Positions 9,689 to 17,614 of a stretch of 17,614 nucleotides of DNA are shown here, piece after piece; positions within the stretch are counted from its first letter, which is position 1; every line of letters begins with the position of its first letter. The position numbers and the translations under genes were made by a program. The notes below the pieces were generated by a model. That model worked only from the letters and a program-made list of their open reading frames with translations, searched no databases and had not been told where the DNA came from. The stretch lies in NCBI GenBank assembly GCA_004298675.1, contig SCRI01000033.1, forward strand, positions 1 to 17,614, written 5' to 3'. This DNA comes from a bacterium. Its GTDB lineage: Bacteria; Vulcanimicrobiota; Vulcanimicrobiia; Vulcanimicrobiales; SCRA01.

Positions 9689-9865
9689 CCGGGGTGGGGC
9701 GCGATCGTGCGCCTACCTCGCGTTTGACGTTGGGCGTTGCCGAGGCGCTATCCATGTACACGTGGCGCGGCCCGAGGCAGTCGCGATTGGCGCGCGCTGC
9801 TATCACGGATTCGCTGCTAAGCGCCGGTCGTAAGAGGCCTTACATCCAAACGCGCATACGTGAGC

Positions 9866-9871
9866 TATACT
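9866..9871 (+). promoter_or_regulatory. Candidate -10 element for small exported protein gene
   Basis: TATACT sits in an AT-enriched stretch 64 nt upstream of ATG 9936. No good -35 is found at 17 bp; TTACAT lies at a 20-bp spacing. This would leave a leader of about 58 nt. Confidence 0.3.
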
Positions 9872-9935
9872 CGTAGCATTCCAAACGAGATCGCAAGATC
9901 GATAGGCGCAAATAGGAACACCTGGAGAACTTAGA

Positions 9936-10139
9936 ATGAACAAGAACATGCGAGCATTCGTCGCGGCGGCGCTCTTCGTCGGCCTCGCAATCCCTGCGGC
10001 TGCCTCAGCACAGCAGCTGCCTGCGCGACAATTGGCCGCGGCCAACTTCGGTACGCGGCCGAGTATCTGCGATAGCACAGCAGCTTCGCGACAGAGCGAC
10101 CAGGTGCCGGCGCGCTACATCTGGATGGCGGGGCCGTAA
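9936..10139 (+). CDS. Small exported hypothetical protein (67 aa)
   Basis: I do not recognise this family. The protein has a textbook Sec signal peptide: basic start MNKNMR, hydrophobic core FVAAALFVGLAIPAAA and an ASA cleavage motif followed by QQLP. The mature part would be about 42 residues, with one Cys, several Arg and Ala, and a final ARYIWMAGP. ATG 9936 is preceded by GGAGA (9924-9928) at good spacing, and a possible promoter element lies upstream, which supports real expression. It stands alone between pirin and a stretch of fragments, so context gives no role. The single Cys and small size exclude a disulfide-rich toxin by itself. Confidence 0.6.
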   Translation: MNKNMRAFVAAALFVGLAIPAAASAQQLPARQLAAANFGTRPSICDSTAASRQSDQVPARYIWMAGP

Positions 10140-10168
10140 ACCAGAGTATAGGCCACCTGTGACGATTT

Positions 10169-10221
10169 GGAGGCGAGAGGGAGGCATGCGGTTTGACGGC
10201 TCTCACGATCGCCTCCTCTCG
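10169..10221. repeat. Inverted repeats with alternative pairing after the small exported gene
   Basis: GGAGGCGA (10169-10176) is complementary to TCGCCTCC (10209-10216), and the overlapping CGAGAGG (10174-10180) is complementary to CCTCTCG (10215-10221). The two stems exclude each other. They begin 30 nt after the stop at 10139, with a loop of about 32 nt and no T-tract. This may be a weak terminator or simply debris in a region of poor coding signal. Confidence 0.3.
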
Positions 10222-10241
10222 ATATTCTCGTGATATGTTCG

Positions 10242-10406
10242 ATGCTTGTCATGGTCACACAACTTAGGCGCTCCCGAGCTGGGAACATCATTCTTTCGGT
10301 CATCTATGCTGTGGTCGGTCTTGCAATCGGAGCCACCGGAAGCGAGATCAACGTCATGGCGTCGGCGGTTTTCAGCACGTATCGGTGCTGCCAGCAAGCA
10401 CTATAA
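10242..10406 (+). CDS. Possible 54-residue small membrane protein
   Basis: A short open frame from ATG 10242 (or ATG 10251) ends at TAA 10404-10406. It encodes a basic N-terminus (QLRRSRAGN), a hydrophobic stretch IILSVIYAVVGLAIGA and a tail ending STYRCCQQAL with a vicinal Cys pair. No Shine-Dalgarno is evident. GC at third codon positions is about 60%, below the clear genes on the left. It could be a real single-helix peptide, a gene fragment or chance; I do not recognise a family. Confidence 0.25.
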   Translation: MLVMVTQLRRSRAGNIILSVIYAVVGLAIGATGSEINVMASAVFSTYRCCQQAL

Positions 10407-10411
10407 CGTAG

Positions 10412-10546
10412 CGTCGCGCCGCTGCAAAGCCGATGACGCATGGACTGCCTTGTATTTCTCCGCTCATCCCGGAGCACTGGACATGGGTGGGACTGCGGAG
10501 AATCCCATACCACGGCGGCGAGTTCTCGTATGCCGCCGTCCGCTAA
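10412..10546 (+). pseudogene. Possible C-terminal remnant of a glycoside hydrolase-like protein
   Basis: After a stop at 10409-10411 the frame reads through to TAA 10544-10546. It contains LPCISPLIPEHWTWVGLRRI followed by PYHGGEFSYAAVR. The pattern P-x-I/L-P-x-x-W-x-x-V-x-L-x-x-I-P-Y-x-G resembles the C-terminal strands of six-hairpin glycosidases and phosphorylases (GH15/63/65/94-like). The richness in Trp, Tyr and His is unlike random GC-rich frames. ATG 10433 would allow a 37-residue peptide, but a gene remnant is more likely. The match is from memory of motif shape only. Confidence 0.25.
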
Positions 10547-10865: not shown

Positions 10866-11456
10866 CTATCTATCTTGCACCGCTGCCGGCGCCCATTTGC
10901 GCGCCTTGAACGCGTCGTCCAACGGCGTCGCGAACAGATGGTTCGAGTAGTTGCTCAGTGTCTTGACCGCGATGGCGAGGATAACGTCGAGGACCTGCTT
11001 CTCGCTATACCCCGCTCGCAGGAACCCGTGCACATCGGACTCCGTCGGACGTCCACGCGTAAGGAGCATGGCGCGCGTGAACGCTGCGAGCGCCGCGAGC
11101 TTCGCGTCAGGGATGGGCGCGCCGTCGCGGATCGCTTCGGTCACCGGTTGCGGGACCTTCGACTTCGCTTCGGCGATCACGCTGTGAGCAGCCATGCAGT
11201 AATCACAACCGTTCTCGTAGCTGATGGTGAGGAAGACGACCTCCTGCTCCGCCGGCGTGAAACCGGAGAGCGAGCGGAACTTTTCATACCCGGAGAGGTA
11301 CGTCTCGAGGACCTCGGGGGCGTTGGCCATATACGCATACATATTCGGTATCATGCCGCTGCGCCGCCGCACTTCGGCCAGCACGGCTCGGACGCGCTCG
11401 TTCGAGGCGTTGGCGTCGTGCTTGGGTAGTTGAAGGCGGTAGGTTGCTTCGCTCAT
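10866..11456 (-). CDS. Carboxymuconolactone decarboxylase/AhpD-family protein
   Basis: This 196-residue protein is of the CMD/AhpD fold, all-helical with a redox-active CxxC. The core motif ENGCDYCMAAH gives Cys84, Cys87 and His91, the AhpD-type catalytic set that supports peroxidase or disulfide-reductase activity. The preceding GFTPAEQEVVFLTISYENGC and the later GYSEKQVLDVILAIAVKTLSNYSNH are typical of the peroxidase-related subgroup. ATG 11456 has AGAGGAC about 9 nt upstream. The gene lies 29 nt after a TetR-family gene on the same strand, so the pair probably forms an operon in which the regulator controls a redox-stress enzyme. Confidence 0.92.
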   Translation of the reverse strand: MSEATYRLQLPKHDANASNERVRAVLAEVRRRSGMIPNMYAYMANAPEVLETYLSGYEKFRSLSGFTPAEQEVVFLTISYENGCDYCMAAHSVIAEAKSKVPQPVTEAIRDGAPIPDAKLAALAAFTRAMLLTRGRPTESDVHGFLRAGYSEKQVLDVILAIAVKTLSNYSNHLFATPLDDAFKARKWAPAAVQDR

Positions 11457-11485
11457 CGGATGTCGTCCTCTCTCATGAATGTAGG

Positions 11486-12106
11486 TTAGCGTATGCTGGG
11501 ATCGCGCGCACCGGGTTGGCGCAGCTCGTCGATGAGGTGTAACGCGCCGCGCAACGAGTGTAGGACCAAATCGCGCGGCGCGGGGGAGCGCATCAGCGAC
11601 AGGAGGCCGATGAGCGCTCCCAGCAGCAGAGCGGCAGTCTGCTGCACGTCCAAGTTTGCGCGCAACTCGCCGAGCGCCGCGGCGCGGTCGAGCGCGGCGG
11701 CAAGCGCCGCCTGCAGCTGCTCGAAGTGCATGGAGATCCGTTTACGCGTCGCGGTCTCGAGCGGGGCCGTCTCCGCCGAGGTAACGACCATCAGGCAGCC
11801 AAGGCGGCCCTGCGGCCGGCCGATCTGTTCGCCGAACTGCTCGAAGAAGGCGCGGACCTGCTGCAGCGACGCGTGGGGGCGCCTCAGGGGTGTCATCCAG
11901 CGTCCGGCCACCTCGTCGCGGTAGAGGTCGAGCGAGCGCCTGAACAAGCCCTGTTTGCCGCCGAAGCTGCTATAGAGCCCATAGCGCTGCACGCCCGTGC
12001 TCCGCACTAGCTCGTCGATGGAAGTCTGGCCAAAGCCCCGTGCCCAGAACAGGTGCATGGCCGCGCGTAGAGTCTCTTGAGGTTCGAATGTCTTGCTTCT
12101 CGGCAT
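11486..12106 (-). CDS. TetR/AcrR-family transcriptional regulator
   Basis: This 206-residue protein has the TetR N-terminal helix-turn-helix at about 10-56: ETLRAAMHLFWARGFGQTSI, DELVRSTGVQRYGLYSSFGG and KQGLFRRSLDLY. The rest is a helical ligand-binding domain, with GCLMVVTSAE as in the subgroup that regulates oxidoreductase genes. It is followed closely by the CMD/AhpD-like gene. A promoter-like pair with an inverted repeat filling the spacer lies right before the start codon, which suggests autoregulation. ATG 12106 is the only sensible start; the protein begins MPRSKTFEPQETL as in relatives. The inducer is unknown. Confidence 0.93.
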   Translation of the reverse strand: MPRSKTFEPQETLRAAMHLFWARGFGQTSIDELVRSTGVQRYGLYSSFGGKQGLFRRSLDLYRDEVAGRWMTPLRRPHASLQQVRAFFEQFGEQIGRPQGRLGCLMVVTSAETAPLETATRKRISMHFEQLQAALAAALDRAAALGELRANLDVQQTAALLLGALIGLLSLMRSPAPRDLVLHSLRGALHLIDELRQPGARDPSIR

Positions 12107-12140: not shown

Positions 12141-12307
12141 GAATTCAAGCCCCCGGGGCGGTACAGCGCCGGATCGCCGCGGAAGAGCACCGTAACCTTG
12201 CTGCCGCAGCGCGCGAACATCTGCGCGAACTCCATACCGATCGGCCCGGCACGAATCACCACGAGTTGGCGTGGCAGGCGTTGGAGCGCACTCCTGTGGT
12301 TGAGCAT
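12137..12307 (-). pseudogene. Remnant of mercuric-reductase-like gene, NAD-binding segment
   Basis: A 56-residue frame (ATG 12305-12307 to TGA 12137-12139) contains LPRQLVVIRAGPIGMEFAQM, then FARCGSKVTVLFRGD. This is the NAD-binding beta-alpha-beta unit of a class I pyridine nucleotide-disulfide oxidoreductase. The first Gly of the GxGxxG motif is replaced by Arg. The flavin domain, the redox Cys pair and everything after the motif are missing; the sequence departs from the family after FRGD. It is closely similar, without gaps, to 13996-14083 in the larger reductase pseudogene. It is a decayed fragment, probably not functional. Confidence 0.7.
12172..12259 (-). repeat. Dispersed repeat copy A (pairs with 13996-14083)
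   Basis: These 88 bp align without gaps to 13996-14083 at an offset of 1824 bp, including long identical runs. Both copies encode the NAD-binding motif of a reductase on the minus strand. They represent two homologous genes or a duplicated one, both now damaged. Confidence 0.75.
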
Positions 12308-12417
12308 AGGCGCACCCTATCAGTCAGCATTACGCAACGAGCGCGGTTTGTAAGCCCGACTACCGAAGAGTCAGGCGCGCTGCGCTACCCTGTTCGTACG
12401 AGGCATTAGGAGCGCAA

Positions 12418-13155
12418 TTGATTACTCGGGAGATCCGCTGGGTTGACACAGACCTGCCGGAGACGATCGATCGGCAGTGTCTCCTTCTAGCGCTCCTCTT
12501 GCTTCTTCCGCCGAGTGCCAGCGCGCTCGCGGCAAGTGTACCACAGACGGACGCGAGTCCAGGAGCGATGCCCACTACGGATGCTCGAGAGATCGTGCAG
12601 CGCCTCATCGAGCGCGAGCCCGACTTACAAACATATCGCGCACACGTTAACGTGAAGATCCGTATGAGGAGTTTTCCATTTCTTGCGCCGGCACTCCCGG
12701 GACAGGTGTACTTCAAGCGGCCGGGCAAGTACGAAGTGATCTTCGACCACGTACCGTTCTATGCCAAGGGCTTCGAGCGCGTATATGGGGACATTGGCGA
12801 CCCCTCGGATTGGTATCAGCGCTTCCACGTCTCATATTCCGGACAGGTCATCGTGAGCGGCCATCCTGACATTGTGCTGACGCTCGTTCAGCGCGTGCGC
12901 GGAATGATCGATCATGAGCGCGTCATGGTCGATCCAACGGTGTGGCACATCGACCAGATGGAGTGGCGTTACTACAGTGGCGGTGTTATCACGATGTCGC
13001 AGCAGTATTCCAATGAGGGCGGCTTCGACATGGTCGTTCGTCAATCGGCGGACATCCGGATACCACACTTCTCCGCCATCGGGAACGCCGACCTGAGCGA
13101 CTATCGGACGAACGTCGCAATCGATGATGCCACGTTTGCGGAGAACCATCGATAG
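12418..13155 (+). CDS. LolA-like exported protein
   Basis: This 245-residue protein appears exported: hydrophobic core CLLLALLLLLPPSASALA at about 21-38, then a likely cleavage near Ala38. The remainder resembles LolA-like outer-membrane lipoprotein-sorting folds: REIVQRLIEREPDLQTYRAH, beta-rich segments VNVKIRMRSFPFLAPALPGQ, VYFKRPGKYEVIFDHVP and later MEWRYYSGGVITMSQQYSNE. Such proteins bind lipids or lipoproteins in the periplasm, but the specific role is unknown. The start is TTG 12418, supported by AGGAG (12408-12412) 5 nt upstream; no ATG or GTG lies before the hydrophobic core. The N-region is unusually long and acidic for a signal peptide. It sits between two reductase remnants. Confidence 0.75.
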   Translation: MITREIRWVDTDLPETIDRQCLLLALLLLLPPSASALAASVPQTDASPGAMPTTDAREIVQRLIEREPDLQTYRAHVNVKIRMRSFPFLAPALPGQVYFKRPGKYEVIFDHVPFYAKGFERVYGDIGDPSDWYQRFHVSYSGQVIVSGHPDIVLTLVQRVRGMIDHERVMVDPTVWHIDQMEWRYYSGGVITMSQQYSNEGGFDMVVRQSADIRIPHFSAIGNADLSDYRTNVAIDDATFAENHR

Positions 13156-13177
13156 CGAGTCCTGAGCCGCCCGTCGA

Positions 13178-14204
13178 TCAGTGCGCCATTCTCGCCGGCA
13201 TGGCGCTCACTAGCTCCTCGAAAGCGGACTGCACGCCTTCGGCGAGTGTCGGGTGGATGAATACGGCATCGAGAATCGGCCGCGGTGACCGGCTCTCGGT
13301 GGCCATCGCCGTGGCGATGACGTGCACGATCTCGCCAGCATTCGGGCCGAAGAGGTGTGCGCCCAGAATGCGTCCGCTGGTGGCATCGACCAGCACCTTG
13401 ATGATGCCCTCGCGCTCGCCCATTGCGCGCGCTCGGCCGATCTTCGCAAACGGATAGGTTGCATACACAGGCTCGAAACCGGCGGCACGCGCCTCTGCTA
13501 CGGTGAGGCCGACGCGGGCGACCTCCGGCTCGGTGAAGACCGCCCCGGGGACCACCGTGGGATCGAAGCGCTCGCTGCCGCCGTTGCCCGCGTTACGCGC
13601 GGCAATGCCCCCTTCCAGGACCGCCACGTGCGTGTAGAGCTGACTGCCGCTGGTGTGCCCGACGGCATCGCCCACGGCGAAGATGCCCTCGACGTTGGTG
13701 CGCATCGTAGGGTCCACCGAGATCCATCGCTCTCGCGTGGTCGCAATCCCCGCGTGGGCGACCTCCAGCGCCGCAGCATTCGGCTCGCGCCCGATCGCTA
13801 GGAGCACCTCATCCGCAGCGAAGCGCCGCTCTTGGCCGTCGACCGTGGCAACGACCACGCGCGGCGCATCTGCATCCCGCGCGTCACCGCTCTCCATGCG
13901 CAATACCTTCGTGTACGGCACCATCTCGAGCCCCTCTCGGGCGAGATACGCTGTGAGAGCCGCGCCGACCTCAGGATCCTCGTGCGGCAGCACGCGATCG
14001 CCGCGGAAGAGCACGGTTACGCGACTGCCGAAGCGCGCGAACATCTGCGCGAACTCCATGCCGATCGGGCCGGCGCCGATCACTGCCGATGGCGCCGCGC
14101 TCGACTAGCGCGACCCGCGCACCGCTCTCCGCGGCGGTCGTCGCCGCGGCGACCCCGCCCATCCCGGCACCGATGACGATCACGTCGTATACTTGACAAT
14201 TCAT
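13178..14204 (-). pseudogene. Mercuric-reductase-like flavoprotein with internal deletion and frameshift
   Basis: From ATG 14204 the frame reads MNCQVYDVIVIGAGMGGVAA, then TTAAESGARVALVERGAIG, the FAD-binding start of a MerA/dihydrolipoamide-dehydrogenase-type enzyme. Where the redox motif GxxCxxxxC should follow, the DNA jumps to AVIGAGPIGMEFAQMFARFG, the NAD-binding motif, in another frame. About 130-140 codons, including both redox cysteines, are missing by family comparison. The rest is intact from GTG 14083 to TGA 13178: IFAVGDAVG (second FAD motif), VFTEPEVARVGLT and the dimer-interface motif IHPTLAEGV. The 301-residue C-terminal part alone lacks flavin binding and catalysis. It diverges from the ArsR gene by 26 bp, so it was probably the reductase of this metal cluster. 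An assembly error at 14080-14095 should be ruled out. Confidence 0.8.
13996..14083 (-). repeat. Dispersed repeat copy B (pairs with 12172-12259)
   Basis: This is the second copy of the 88-bp NAD-binding segment described at 12172-12259. Its upstream end (14083) coincides with the deletion junction in the reductase pseudogene. Confidence 0.75.
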
Positions 14205-14220
14205 AAATACATGATATATC
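14193..14220 (+). promoter_or_regulatory. arsR promoter with candidate operator dyad
   Basis: A consensus -35 TTGACA (14193-14198) is followed after 16 bp by TATATC (14215-14220). The spacer contains the perfect dyad TCAT-N6-ATGA (14201-14214), a good position for an ArsR-family repressor. The -10 ends 10 bp before ATG 14231, so transcription should start about 3-4 nt before the start codon. There is no Shine-Dalgarno, which fits a near-leaderless message. The AT-rich block stands out from its GC-rich surroundings and also overlaps the start of the divergent reductase pseudogene. Confidence 0.6.
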
Positions 14221-14225
14221 CTCCC
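14201..14225 (-). other. Possible three-codon leader ORF coupled to the reductase start
   Basis: On the minus strand GGGAGG (14220-14225) lies 7 nt before ATG 14210-14212, which reads Met-Tyr-Leu-stop. The stop TGA (14201-14203) overlaps the reductase ATG (14202-14204) as ATGA. The good Shine-Dalgarno therefore serves the mini-frame, and the reductase could be translated by re-initiation. The site may be chance. Confidence 0.3.
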
Positions 14226-14230
14226 GTCAA

Positions 14231-14602
14231 ATGGCTAAGCTGCGTACTCGTCCGGGGATCTCGCCGGAGCCCGAGGAGTCGGCGGACCTGCCCTACGCCA
14301 AGTTCATGAGCGGGCTGGCCGATCCCACGCGCCTGCGCATCGTGCGCTTCCTCATCGACGGTCCGCGCTCGGTGGGTGAGATCGTCGAGTATTTGGGCAT
14401 GAGCCCGAGCCGAGTGAGCAACCACTTGGCCTGCCTCAAATGGTGCGGCTACGTCGATACCGAGCGCCACGGACGCAGCATCAGCTACCGGCTCACCGAC
14501 CGCCGCATCCGCAATATCCTCGAGCTGGCGCAGGCCGTCGTCGCGGACAACGCTGCGAACATCGCGGCATGCACCCGAATCGACCTCGAGGCGCAGCCGT
14601 GA
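14231..14602 (+). CDS. ArsR/SmtB-family metal sensor with CmtR-like cysteines
   Basis: This 123-residue winged-helix regulator contains FMSGLADPTRLRIVRFLIDG, the recognition region MSPSRVSNHLACLKWCGYV and the wing TERHGRSISYRLTD. Cys68 and Cys72 in the recognition helix and Cys114 near the C-terminus reproduce the spacing of Cys57, Cys61 and Cys102 of mycobacterial CmtR, which senses Cd(II)/Pb(II). The protein should repress its operon in the absence of metal and release DNA when metal binds; which metal is inferred, and Hg(II) is possible given the neighbours. The start at ATG 14231 gives a short N-terminal extension. The stop overlaps the next gene's GTG (GTGA). It is divergent from the broken reductase, sharing a 26-bp control region. 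Confidence 0.9.
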   Translation: MAKLRTRPGISPEPEESADLPYAKFMSGLADPTRLRIVRFLIDGPRSVGEIVEYLGMSPSRVSNHLACLKWCGYVDTERHGRSISYRLTDRRIRNILELAQAVVADNAANIAACTRIDLEAQP

Positions 14603-14868
14603 GATCAGAATCGCCGCTCGACTGGCTTATAGCGCTCGGCGCGGCAGCGGCGGTCCTTGTCTGCTGCGTGGCTCCGCTCGTGCTTGCCGCGACCGGGTTC
14701 TCACTCATGGCACTTGTACTGACCGGCGCACGCCGCTTATCTGTGGTCACGGCTGCTGCGGTAAGTGCGCTTGTTGTCGTAGCGTTCGTTGTGCGCCGAC
14801 GCCGTGCGGCGGCATGCCGCGGGGTGAGCGGTAAAGGCCTGCCGGAGGCACGTGTTGGTCACGAGTAA
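14599..14868 (+). CDS. MerF/MerT-like small metal-transport membrane protein
   Basis: This 89-residue protein starts at GTG 14599, overlapping the arsR stop. It has two hydrophobic helices, at about 10-43 (with a bend) and 47-65, followed by a cytoplasmic-looking Arg cluster. Helix 1 holds a vicinal Cys pair, Cys22-Cys23, followed by Val-Ala-Pro, as in the CC-x-x-P site of MerF and MerT that takes Hg(II) from the periplasm. A further Cys73 in RRAAACRG sits where MerF has its second Cys pair. Size and topology fit MerF (about 80 residues) better than MerT. It probably moves a soft metal ion across the inner membrane. With the reductase broken, import alone would be harmful unless the metal is handled otherwise. 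Confidence 0.7.
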   Translation: MRSESPLDWLIALGAAAAVLVCCVAPLVLAATGFSLMALVLTGARRLSVVTAAAVSALVVVAFVVRRRRAAACRGVSGKGLPEARVGHE

Positions 14869-14980
14869 TGCCGATGCGTTCATCGCTGGCTCGGTGATCT
14901 TGGTCCTCCTCTCCGTGTGGTTTGCTGCGCACAACCTTACGACGCCGTGCTCGCCCAAGGCTTTGAAAGGATCGCGCTAA
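14852..14980 (+). CDS. Small single-helix membrane peptide (42 aa)
   Basis: This frame is shorter than usual gene-calling limits. GGAGG (14844-14848) precedes GTG 14852 by 3 nt and TTG 14855 by 6 nt, so the latter may be the true start. The peptide reads TSNADAFIAGSVILVLLSVW, then FAAHNLTTPCSPKALKGSR: one membrane helix, a short tail with a single Cys after Thr-Pro, and a basic end. It overlaps the MerF-like gene by 17 bp, and its TAA overlaps the next gene's ATG (TAATG), so it fills the gap exactly within the operon. I do not recognise a family; it may be an accessory subunit for metal transfer. Confidence 0.55.
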   Translation: MLVTSNADAFIAGSVILVLLSVWFAAHNLTTPCSPKALKGSR

Positions 14981-15519
14981 TGAGGCGGTTGATTTCCTTC
15001 GGCTTTCCCGCACTGATGCTCACCGTTAGCCTGGTGCTTCTCGGGTTCCATTGGTCGGCAGCGGCGGAACGGCCCGGCATCGGGCAACCGGCTCCAGCTT
15101 TCGCCTACCGCCTCACCGACGGTAAGACCTTGACCCCGAGCGAGCTGCGCGGCCATCCGTACATGCTCTGGCTCATGGCAACGTGGTGCTCGTCGTGCCA
15201 AGGCGGCACCGCCGTCGTTGCCCAGCACATCGGCGAGCTGCGCGCGCACGGCGTGCGCGTCGTCCAGGTCGAGGTGGCCAACGATCTCGGCTATTCCGGT
15301 CCGCCGCTCGCGTCGTTCCGAAAGGCTGTGGGAATGGCCGCGGCGTCTCCCAACTGGTACTGGGGCGAGCTGACCCGGGCCCAGACGCAAACGCTCGATC
15401 CCCGCGCCTATCCGGACATCTACTACCTTATCAACGCGCAGGGACGCATCGTTGCGATCGACGGCGCGCCGGCGGCAACCTGGTCGAGCATCGAACGCTT
15501 CGCCGAAGGAAAGAGTTAA
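14980..15519 (+). CDS. TlpA/redoxin-like membrane-anchored thioredoxin
   Basis: This 179-residue protein has an N-terminal hydrophobic helix (about 4-28, ending WSAAAERPG) that is an anchor or signal, then a thioredoxin-like domain. GQPAPAFAYRLTDGKTLTPS is the typical redoxin opening, LRGHPYMLWLMATWCSSCQG gives the active site Cys70-x-x-Cys73, and YPDIYYLINAQGRIVAIDG carries the cis-Pro region. It should act in the periplasm as a disulfide reductase or oxidase. ATG 14980 overlaps the small peptide's stop (TAATG), and AAAGGA lies about 8 nt upstream. In this setting it could keep metal-binding thiols reduced or deliver metal, which is inference. The position next to MerF-like and ArsR-like genes argues for a metal-stress role. 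Confidence 0.88.
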   Translation: MRRLISFGFPALMLTVSLVLLGFHWSAAAERPGIGQPAPAFAYRLTDGKTLTPSELRGHPYMLWLMATWCSSCQGGTAVVAQHIGELRAHGVRVVQVEVANDLGYSGPPLASFRKAVGMAAASPNWYWGELTRAQTQTLDPRAYPDIYYLINAQGRIVAIDGAPAATWSSIERFAEGKS

Positions 15520-15549
15520 ACTCGTCTCCCGCGAGGCTGGGCCGCTGAC

Positions 15550-15822
15550 GTGGCGCGTTCCAAGGTGCCTCTCGCCCATGACGTGGCCGCAGTGCCTCAT
15601 GCGTCTCGCCACTTTCGGCGAACGTGGCGGGTCATCGCTCATCCCGACCACCTCTATCGGACAATCTTGATCGGATCCGCGGTTGGCACGTGGCTATTTA
15701 ACGAAGGCGACGCTCTCTGGCGCGGCGGTGTTACACATCTCCTCATGCTGAAGATCGTTCTCAATTACGTCACCCCAATCGTCGTCGCGAATCTCGGCCT
15801 CCTTTCGGGGAGAGACTCTTGA
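15550..15822 (+). CDS. NrtS-like small membrane protein
   Basis: This 90-residue protein resembles the NrtS family of small membrane proteins linked to nitrate/nitrite uptake. After a basic amphipathic N-terminus there are two hydrophobic segments. YRTILIGSAVGTWLFNEGDA contains the N-x-G-D motif (residues 51-54) typical of the family between the helices. The second segment is LKIVLNYVTPIVVANLGLLS. The start at GTG 15550 is uncertain; GTG 15565 is also in frame and no strong Shine-Dalgarno is present. It follows the TlpA-like gene by 30 bp and precedes a weak short frame and a Crp/Fnr gene. The link to nitrogen is by family name only. Confidence 0.6.
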   Translation: MARSKVPLAHDVAAVPHASRHFRRTWRVIAHPDHLYRTILIGSAVGTWLFNEGDALWRGGVTHLLMLKIVLNYVTPIVVANLGLLSGRDS

Positions 15823-15829
15823 GGAGGGT

Positions 15830-16039
15830 ATGACAGCAGCGCTTGCCCGGCTCTGTGTACATGAGGTCGTGGCTCCGTTCTTGGAACGCGTCGCTCGTGC
15901 ACGCATGCTCCGCAAGAAGATGCACCGTTGTTCCCCTGGTCTCGGTTGGCGTGGCACGCGCAGCACTGCCCGAGCCCGGATTAGGCGCCTAAGGACGAAG
16001 AGTGCAATGCGTCCCCTCAGCTTAGGAGGTATTGCTTGA
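15830..16039 (+). CDS. Doubtful 69-residue Arg-rich ORF
   Basis: ATG 15830 follows GAGGAGGG (15821-15828) at an unusually tight 1-2 nt spacing, and the TGA at 16037-16039 overlaps the Crp/Fnr start codon. The protein, with HEVVAPFLERVARARMLRKK near its start, becomes extremely Arg-rich, which often marks a wrong frame in GC-rich DNA. It could be a coupling ORF for the regulator or not a gene at all. No better candidate is seen in 15823-16038. Confidence 0.3.
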   Translation: MTAALARLCVHEVVAPFLERVARARMLRKKMHRCSPGLGWRGTRSTARARIRRLRTKSAMRPLSLGGIA

Positions 16040-16725
16040 TGGCGGATCGGACGCAAGAGAGCGGGAAGCGCCTGGAAGACAGCGAGCTCATTTCCTGCTG
16101 TCTGCCGGCCGTGGGGAGTAGCCTGCTTGCTGCCGGAAAGAAGCGGCAACACCGCAAAGATGCGCTCATCTTCGCGCAAGGCGATCCCGCAACGAGCGTC
16201 ATGCTCATCGAGACGGGCTCCGCAGTATGGTTTCGTGAGAGCATTGGCGGCCGCCGCCTGATCGTCAAACTCGAGGGGCCAGGCCAGAGTCTGGGCCTGC
16301 CCGCTGTCGTGGCCGGGTCTACGCGGCTCGTGAGTGCTGCGGCTCTTGAGCCGCTGACGGTCGTCGAGATCCCGAGTAGCGCGATCCTCGACGTGATGCT
16401 CAGGGACGCTGCCATGGCGACGCGTATTGCCCGCATTGCATTAGAAGATTACATGAAGCTCTTGGCTTTCGTGATGGAGGTAACGTTTCACCCCGTATCC
16501 CATCGCATTCTCCGATTACTCTTGCGCCTTGAAGAACAAGGACGACGCTTGGATGTGACGTTGCGCCACCGCGACTTCGCCGATATGGTAGCGACGACAC
16601 GTGAAACCTTTACGGCTCAACTTGGAGCACTCGAACGGTCGGGTCTTATCGCGCGGAGCGGCCACGACGTGTACATCATCAATCCATCGGTCGTACGGAC
16701 GATGGTCGAGGAGCCGTATACATAA
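16039..16725 (+). CDS. Crp/Fnr-family transcriptional regulator
   Basis: This 228-residue protein has a cyclic-nucleotide-binding-like beta-barrel at about 20-130 (KDALIFAQGDPATSVMLIET, PGQSLGLPAVVAG), a long dimerisation helix and a C-terminal Crp-type helix-turn-helix at about 165-215 (LRHRDFADMVATTRETFTAQ, LGALERSGLIARSG). The four-Cys cluster set of Fnr is absent and the cAMP phosphate-binding Arg-Ser pair of Crp is not evident, so the signal is unknown. Cys20-Cys21 form a vicinal pair that could bind metal or sense thiol oxidation. ATG 16039 has AGGAGG (16024-16029) 9 nt upstream; TTG 16036 is closer to it. It may control the upstream NrtS/TlpA/metal genes. Confidence 0.9.
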   Translation: MADRTQESGKRLEDSELISCCLPAVGSSLLAAGKKRQHRKDALIFAQGDPATSVMLIETGSAVWFRESIGGRRLIVKLEGPGQSLGLPAVVAGSTRLVSAAALEPLTVVEIPSSAILDVMLRDAAMATRIARIALEDYMKLLAFVMEVTFHPVSHRILRLLLRLEEQGRRLDVTLRHRDFADMVATTRETFTAQLGALERSGLIARSGHDVYIINPSVVRTMVEEPYT

Positions 16726-16754
16726 CCTACATTGACGTATCCGTGACAGCACGG

Positions 16755-16898
16755 TCATGCCCGAAGCCACGTGTGCTTCGCGCGAGTAAATGCGTCGAGA
16801 GCGTCGTCTATCGTCGAATGAACGGGGAAGATACGGTCCAGACCGGTGATGGATAGTACGCGCGCCTTCCGAGTATCTCGCACTACTAAAGCTACGCC
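16755..16898 (-). pseudogene. C-terminal remnant of a STAS (anti-anti-sigma) protein
   Basis: A 47-codon minus-strand frame, ending in TGA at 16755-16757, reads GVALVVRDTRKARVLSITGL, then DRIFPVHSTIDDALDAF. This matches the C-terminal half of STAS/anti-sigma-factor-antagonist domains (V-x-x-V-L-x-I-T-G-L-D-x-x-F-P-x-x-x-x-x-x-x-A-L). There is no start codon: the frame begins directly after the TAA (16899-16901) that ends the upstream 95-residue gene, in the same frame. The Ser that is phosphorylated in such proteins would lie in the missing part. It is a decayed fragment, or the upstream stop arose within a fusion. Confidence 0.6.
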
Positions 16899-17186
16899 TT
16901 ATCCGTCATCTGCGGTAGCGGGGCGCGTCGTGCCGTTCGATCGTGCATCGCCAGTGATGGATCTGTACTCCTCGGCGTAACCTTCGAGCCATGCGTTGCG
17001 GCATGCGTCGCAGAGGCCGGACCGCCAGGCGTGCCAGAGCATGTCCTCGGCGCGCCGAAACCGAGCCGCATGACTGTTGCCGAAAGCGTAACGGGCTGCG
17101 TTCGCGCCGAGGCGGCGCCAAAGGTCCAGGTTCGGGGCTCTGTCTAGCGCAGGAGCGCCGCGTTCACTTCTGCTTTCAGGTGTCAT
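16899..17186 (-). CDS. Small hypothetical protein with CxxC (95 aa)
   Basis: I do not recognise the family. From ATG 17186 the protein has a polar start, then RAPNLDLWRRLGANAARYAF and the segment EDMLWHAWRSGLCDACRNAW, which is rich in Trp and contains a CDAC pair, followed by LEGYAEEYRSITGD. The C-terminal 15 residues look disordered. It starts 11 bp inside the 3' end of the HD-GYP gene, so the two are probably translated together, and it may bind a metal or a partner through the Cys pair. The in-frame continuation past its stop codon encodes a STAS remnant, so the present C-terminus may be the result of a rearrangement. Confidence 0.5.
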   Translation of the reverse strand: MTPESRSERGAPALDRAPNLDLWRRLGANAARYAFGNSHAARFRRAEDMLWHAWRSGLCDACRNAWLEGYAEEYRSITGDARSNGTTRPATADDG

Positions 17187-17614
17187 CTTCGTGGGTGTGC
17201 ACAAGCCCGTCGTCGAGCTGCCAGCAGCGAGCATGTAGGAACACGGCGACGAGCGTAGGGTCGAATTGTCCACCGGCGTTTGCCAGTAGCTCTGAAAGCG
17301 CCTCGTTTTGCACGATAACCGGGCGATACGGCCGAGGCGAGGTCATCGCGTCGTAAGCGTCGCAGATCGCGATGATTCGTGCCGGGCGGGAGACTGCCTC
17401 GCCCTGCAAGCCCCGCGGGTAGCCCAAGCCGTCATACCGCTCGTGGTGTGCCCCGACCGCAAGCGCGACCGCGTGCATGTGGCTCCCGGTCAGTCGGGAC
17501 AGGAACTGCTCGCCAACCGCGGCATGTCGTTGCACCGTCATGCGCTCGTCGTCCGTCAGGGGGCCGGCTTTCAGTACGATGGCCTCCGGGACGACGATCA
17601 TCCCGATGTCGTGC
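17176..17614 (-). CDS. HD-GYP domain protein, C-terminal part (partial)
   Basis: The frame runs off the right edge; the visible 145 residues are the C-terminal part of an HD-GYP domain, the class that hydrolyses cyclic di-GMP. The first visible residues are HDIGM, so the metal-binding His-Asp pair is present, but the Lys of the usual HDxGK is Met. Next come LKAGPLTDDERMTVQRHAAV, then HHERYDGLGYPRGLQGE with an intact GYP-type loop, and RIIAICDAYDAMTSPRPYRP. The end GGQFDPTLVAVFL is also typical. N-terminal sensory or receiver domains, if any, lie outside the window. Whether the Lys-to-Met change alters activity is unknown. Confidence 0.9.
   Translation of the reverse strand, partial: HDIGMIVVPEAIVLKAGPLTDDERMTVQRHAAVGEQFLSRLTGSHMHAVALAVGAHHERYDGLGYPRGLQGEAVSRPARIIAICDAYDAMTSPRPYRPVIVQNEALSELLANAGGQFDPTLVAVFLHARCWQLDDGLVHTHEDDT

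Follow-up and report, generated by a model that had tools for sequence, protein, structure and literature searches.

Mercury resistance is a textbook case of detoxification and relies on an established set of transporters, among which MerT and MerF are small membrane proteins with a helix-embedded CC motif. Mer operons with an ArsR-type regulator have already been documented in Streptomyces lividans and Sulfolobus, where an ArsR-family repressor controls merA, sometimes together with membrane transporters (PMC3466566). Compared with these, the gene set described here adds a membrane protein, MerX, and a TlpA-like thioredoxin, and it has no MerP; in the window (the whole stretch of DNA analysed, 17,614 nucleotides) the reductase and MerX are disrupted. 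The regulator of the window shares the ArsR fold with CmtR, the Cd(II)/Pb(II) sensor of Mycobacterium tuberculosis (Rv1994c, PDB 2JSC).

Regulator, putative operator and gene inventory of the window

All five open reading frames that the first-pass annotation had read as a compact metal-handling operon are present in the window sequence as given there (Table 1), and the coordinates of their overlaps hold as well: GTGA between arsR and ORF2 (14599-14602), 17 bp between ORF2 and the 42-aa ORF (14852-14868) and TAATG between the latter and tlpA (14978-14982).

Table 1. Features of the metal-handling locus in the window.
Feature	Position	Strand	Remarks
Second relic piece of the flavoenzyme gene	12164..12292	-	79-bp repeat 12172-12250 / 13996-14074
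Disrupted MerA-like flavoprotein disulfide reductase	13178..14204	-	profile matches and blastn against C68
arsR promoter with putative operator	14193..14220	+	TTGACA 14193-14198, inverted repeat 14198-14217, -10-like TATATC
ArsR/SmtB-family regulator, CmtR-like	14231..14602	+	123 aa; Cys68/Cys72/Cys114; NF033788 and NF047906 matches
Two-TM protein with CCxxP motif (ORF2), weakly MerT-like	14599..14868	+	89 aa; NF010314
MerX stub ORF, 42 aa	14852..14980	+	homologous part ~36 aa, from about 14867
TlpA/ResA-like thioredoxin, membrane-anchored or secreted	14980..15519	+	179 aa; WCSSC; PF00578
NrtS-like small membrane protein, neighbour outside the conserved operon	15550..15822	+	

The regulator matches NF033788 (E 2e-23, NCBIfam profile search), and its nearest metal-specific curated family is CmtR (NF047906, E 4e-20), whose equivalog threshold of more than 150 bits it misses at 71.5 bits; CmtR (2JSC) is also its top solved relative in a profile search. 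Cysteines occur at positions 68, 72 and 114 only. Among 14 homologues the first two are invariant and the third nearly so, and they are presumably the counterparts of the CmtR ligands, which we take to be Cys57, Cys61 and Cys102, since both proteins have the same three-Cys pattern with spacings of 4 and about 41 residues. The earlier reading of a CmtR-like sensor with this pattern was thus well founded, with the qualification that, unlike CmtR, the protein scores below the equivalog cut-off and sits with mercuric reductase genes.

The arsR gene is divergent from the relic of the reductase gene, with a promoter region common to both, and the same pairing is seen in relatives; in gene order the window therefore shows the regulator (MerR or ArsR) adjoining merA that marks a mer operon. 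Upstream of arsR an inverted repeat with the consensus ATATCAT-N6-ATGATAT is shared by the majority of 22 loci that span many genera, and is likely to be the ArsR operator, as judged from this recurrence. The copy of the window is imperfect (AATTCAT-N6-ATGATAT) and lies between TTGACA and the -10 box; it scores 12 of 14, and a score of at least 12 was reached in none of 1100 shuffled upstream regions. Paralogues of the regulator are encoded elsewhere in the genome, on contigs C23 and C51. A whole-genome homologue search detected no arsR on contig C68, which carries intact genes of the system (see below) and whose reductase promoter retains the related sequence GATATATCATGAAGTTATG. The regulator search of other genome contigs returned only two Bacillus-group loci with arsR and merA; none of the genes lying between the two is MerX.

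ORF2 had been proposed to be a MerF-like carrier. The CC-x-x-P motif embedded in a helix was confirmed, and two transmembrane segments are predicted. The identification with MerF was rejected, as neither Pfam nor NCBIfam gave a MerF match at E up to 1; the one relevant profile match is to MerT (NF010314, E 6e-4, far below cut-off), a weak likeness. The orthologue in locus L023 (contig C37 of genome G002) matches the Pfam MerT family, also at E 6e-4, and the copies on C23 and C26 are 84-85% identical. Among the mapped loci the MerT-like protein is confined to the genus of the window, plus a doubtful case in L089.

The conserved kernel and the probable decay of the window copy

Close homologues of the regulator were found in related genomes, and the genes around them form a recurring set of four, which encode ArsR, MerX, TlpA-like thioredoxin and MerA-type reductase. 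Of 17 loci mapped, all those whose contig extends past MerX have TlpA beside it, and ArsR and/or MerA adjoin in 16 of the 17, C68 being the exception. There are three layouts: all genes run in one direction, or arsR is turned the other way, or, as in the window, the reductase is. Judged from homology and gene order, the conserved unit is an arsR - merX - tlpA - merA kernel and represents a form of the mer operon specific to this phylum. The gene-order comparison proposed by the first-pass annotation as a check hence came out in its favour for ArsR and TlpA, which are conserved together and with mercuric reductases, and against it for the peptide as such and the NrtS-like protein.

MerX is a membrane protein of ~180 aa with 4-5 predicted transmembrane segments and a CCT-x-x-IP motif, intact in the relatives. 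It resembles MerT, MerF and ORF2 in having a CC motif in a helix, and yet has no profile match to MerT, MerF or MerC, nor a profile link to any known transporter; a homology to MerT was rejected, since profile comparisons were not significant. No family match was obtained in Pfam, NCBIfam or PDB sequences and none on plasmids or viral contigs. Within the phylum, 16 of 149 genomes carry MerX according to a profile search. The TlpA-like protein of the window, which had been recognised by its WCSSC motif, was confirmed by a match to AhpC-TSA (PF00578, E 6e-8); it has a hydrophobic stretch at residues 4-22 as in TlpA/ResA thioredoxins and is 71-76% identical to the TlpA of intact operons. MerP, the periplasmic GMTCxxC protein, is a usual though not an indispensable component of mer operons. 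A search for a MerP-type GMxCxxC protein in 17 related operons found none apart from one spurious ORF, in keeping with the absence of MerP noticed for the window. Since TlpA accompanies the transporter and MerP is missing throughout, the suggestion that a thioredoxin replaces the usual periplasmic carrier fits the genomic pattern. A literature search returned no paper naming TlpA together with a mer operon, MerA and MerT. The kernel thus points to a mostly uncultured phylum that uses the same logic of sensor and enzyme with an undescribed membrane protein and with a thioredoxin in the place of MerP, and the pairing of MerX and TlpA renders the idea of a thioredoxin as metal carrier directly testable.

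Mapped against the intact copies on C68 and in G002, the genes of the window prove to be incomplete. The 42-aa ORF aligns with the last ~36 residues of MerX only (80% identity to the intact C-terminus on C68 of genome G000), and the profile match is limited to positions 143-173 of 179. We therefore reject it as a genuine small protein and regard the peptide as the C-terminal stub of MerX. The reductase, rightly described as broken, lacks ~415 bp including the region of the redox-active cysteines: an N-terminus of ~40 aa (14204-14085) is followed, in another reading frame, by residues ~177-478 (14083-13178), the deletion beginning just before the redox-active residue, and a second fragment lies apart (Table 1). 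In a blastn comparison position 14085 of the window corresponds to 11415 on C68 and 14079 to 11831. A merA with both a CxxxxC active site and C-terminal vicinal cysteines is accordingly not present in the window. On C68 MerX, TlpA and the reductase are all intact, with the MerX-TlpA pair about 3.6 kb from the reductase.

Two more decayed copies exist in the same genome. The copy on C23 has lost tlpA and nearly all of merA, with the end of merT running directly into the end of tlpA, while arsR, merX and tlpA are lost on C26. C23 shares the merT-end junction, GTCACGAGTAATGCCG, with the contig of the window (C16), so that C23 is probably a more advanced stage of decay, reached from a state like that of C16. 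With MerX reduced to a tail stub and a flavoenzyme without active site, the window copy would be unable to complete the pathway, and it is very probably a decayed paralogue of the mer operon variant with the arsR - merX - tlpA - merA kernel. The homology seen by the first-pass annotation is genuine and its general functional reading correct, but it took remnants for a compact operon. That the window holds a working unit of five genes is not supported, as the peptide is a leftover of MerX, the flavoenzyme gene is broken, the NrtS-like protein lies outside the conserved set and the carrier is only weakly MerT-like.

Alternatively, the locus could be streamlined and still useful, with selection having preserved ArsR, the MerT-like protein and TlpA; these might, for instance, supply a regulator in trans and a partial uptake or redox module for the genes on C68. 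The three reading frames and the operator are indeed still intact, dN/dS is low for ArsR (0.20 against the C23 copy), 0.22 for TlpA and 0.16-0.56 for the MerT-like protein, and C68, with no detectable arsR homologue, keeps a related sequence at its reductase promoter. We nevertheless consider this doubtful, as the MerT-like protein is missing from nearly all other loci and the losses on C23 and C26 affect different parts, resembling drift. The dN/dS values, moreover, are averaged over the time preceding decay and did not tell decay and function apart. With a value of 0.13 for the broken reductase itself, such averages are unable to prove a present function of ArsR. Neither TlpA nor the broken reductase shows relaxed constraint, which indicates for the decayed paralogue either that its decay is recent or that partial function persists.

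The reductase of the relatives and a candidate selenocysteine

Intact reductases of the genus are encoded at L046:11296-12729 (C68 of G000) and L023:9003-7573 (C37 of G002) and are 76% identical. In both, the codon of the first redox cysteine is TGA (GGT-TGA-MNVGC), with no other stop in the gene. A run of 18 consecutive codons around the TGA is identical between the two, compared to 58% of conserved-residue codons overall; a run of this length was reached in 1 of 20,000 shuffles, a figure that overstates the case somewhat, since strong protein conservation at the active site adds to the run. G000 encodes selA (543 bits) and selB (303 bits) side by side and a tRNA-Sec (71.7 bits with Rfam, also found by ARAGORN), and selB and tRNA-Sec were found in G002 as well. 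The same site is affected in a member of another family, G050, where a classic mer operon (MerR - MerTP fusion - MerA, L113:405-2889 on contig C326) encodes a MerA with GGT-TGA-LNRGC and a retained C-terminal SCC. The in-frame UGA at the cysteine position of the homologues is thus conserved between species. A UGA at a redox cysteine with cysteine homologues, in company with selA, selB and tRNA-Sec, is also how prokaryotic selenoproteins present themselves (PMC9312934, PMC13188914).

Bacterial SECIS elements are expected to have their loop 16-37 nt after the UGA, a G at the start of the loop and a minimum free energy of -7.5 or lower (PMC13188914). In all three genes a hairpin loop with G at its start lies 32 nt after the UGA, with energies of -8.8 (C68, GGUC loop), -7.7 (G050, GUU loop) and -5.0 (G002), two of the three being within the limit; z-scores against shuffled sequences were weak, except for G050 (-3.0). 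The in-frame TGA, the insertion machinery and the recurrence of the TGA in a third genome together make selenocysteine insertion in a mercuric-reductase-type enzyme likely, and the enzyme of G050 is a candidate for a true selenocysteine MerA within a classic MerR-MerTP operon. In the two recent reviews of prokaryotic selenoproteins that were searched, a MerT selenoprotein and a metal-binding "putative mercuric reductase" of the UxxU type are mentioned, and a flavoenzyme of the MerA/lipoamide dehydrogenase type with GGTU was not found (PMC9312934, PMC13188914). Our literature search likewise returned no paper on a GGTU-type selenocysteine mercuric reductase.

Selenium binds mercury extremely tightly, and should the UGA be decoded as selenocysteine, the mercury pathway would include an enzyme with selenium at its active site. 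The intact operon probably comprises such a flavoenzyme (GGT-Sec-xNxGC), fed by the new transporter family MerX working with a secreted thioredoxin and not with MerP; it is in these relatives, with MerX and TlpA replacing MerP and a candidate selenocysteine mercuric-reductase-type enzyme, that the interest of the system lies. Homology, gene order, the deletions and the shared operator-like repeat are observed; the metal, the direction of transport, the part played by TlpA and regulation in trans are inferred. In the likely mechanism of the intact relatives, the CmtR-like ArsR would sit on the operator between -35 and -10 and be released once its three cysteines bind Hg(II) or some other thiophilic metal. 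MerX, with or without the MerT-like helper, would use its CC site to carry the metal through the membrane. The secreted TlpA-like thioredoxin may stand in for MerP by passing the metal to MerX or by maintaining the MerX thiols in reduced form, and a cytosolic MerA-type flavoenzyme would reduce Hg(II) with NADPH. As the intact genes on C68 are without a detectable arsR homologue, they may be regulated in trans by the ArsR of the window or by its paralogues on C23 and C51.

The operon might instead serve against another thiophilic stress (Cd/Pb, reactive sulfur or oxidants), with the flavoenzyme of the genus acting as a disulfide reductase and not as a mercuric reductase. The regulator is nearest to CmtR, and the genus enzyme gives similar scores against lipoamide dehydrogenase and MerA. 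Even when intact, it is without the C-terminal CC of MerA and has HPTxxE, which we take to be the dyad of disulfide reductases; it may for these two reasons not reduce Hg(II). However, the orthologous f2/f3 operons carry true MerA (GGTCVNxGC, Tyr in a PYLT motif, either FPYLT or HPYLT, and C-terminal SCC), and the two f2/f3 enzymes scanned both exceed the MerA cut-off. Together with the presence of the MerT-like protein and the documented ArsR-type regulators of mer operons (PMC3466566), this makes a system unconnected with mercury unlikely.

Contig ends and neighbouring genes

An assembly artefact, with gaps left where strain variants were collapsed in the draft genome, is highly improbable: C16 and C23 do end at the same node and C39 and C72 begin with the same 103 bases, but the deletions differ between C16, C23 and C26, which at 84-97% identity are thus distinct sequences, the merT-end junction is found in both C23 and C16, and genome completeness is 98.5% and contamination 0.38%. 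The final 103 bases of the window (17512-17614) are the first 103 of C39 and C72, and since C16 and C23 have this end in common, the contig stops at a repeat node.

The arsR-merT-nrtS region (12333-17614) is present in three divergent copies with different internal deletions, the others being L021 (C23) and L039 (C26), and the deletions share a breakpoint region near the end of merT (14849-14873).

The NrtS-like ORF, which had been counted as the last gene of the operon, is a neighbour only and was rejected as a member, as no other genome searched, those of the same genus included, has a clear counterpart. Profile searches gave no family match for it, and its 85% identical copy on C26 reaches 15.8 bits against NrtS (NF038050, E 0.0096), below the more than 25 bits required for assignment to this family; its dN/dS is 0.60.

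Further downstream, at 16036-16725, a CRP/FNR-type regulator is encoded (FixK-like, E 2e-15), which is 95% identical in C23 with a dN/dS of 0.19. On the other side of the locus a carboxymuconolactone decarboxylase/AhpD-like protein lies beside a TetR regulator (10866-12106, both on the minus strand), and a dispersed repeat of ~620 bp (9816-10434) is 84-86% identical to C26:1233-1861, near the relic copy on that contig. On C68 the reading frame at L046:10264-11271, with an apparent glutaredoxin-like N-terminus and a CRP-like domain, ends 24 bp upstream of the TGA-containing reductase.
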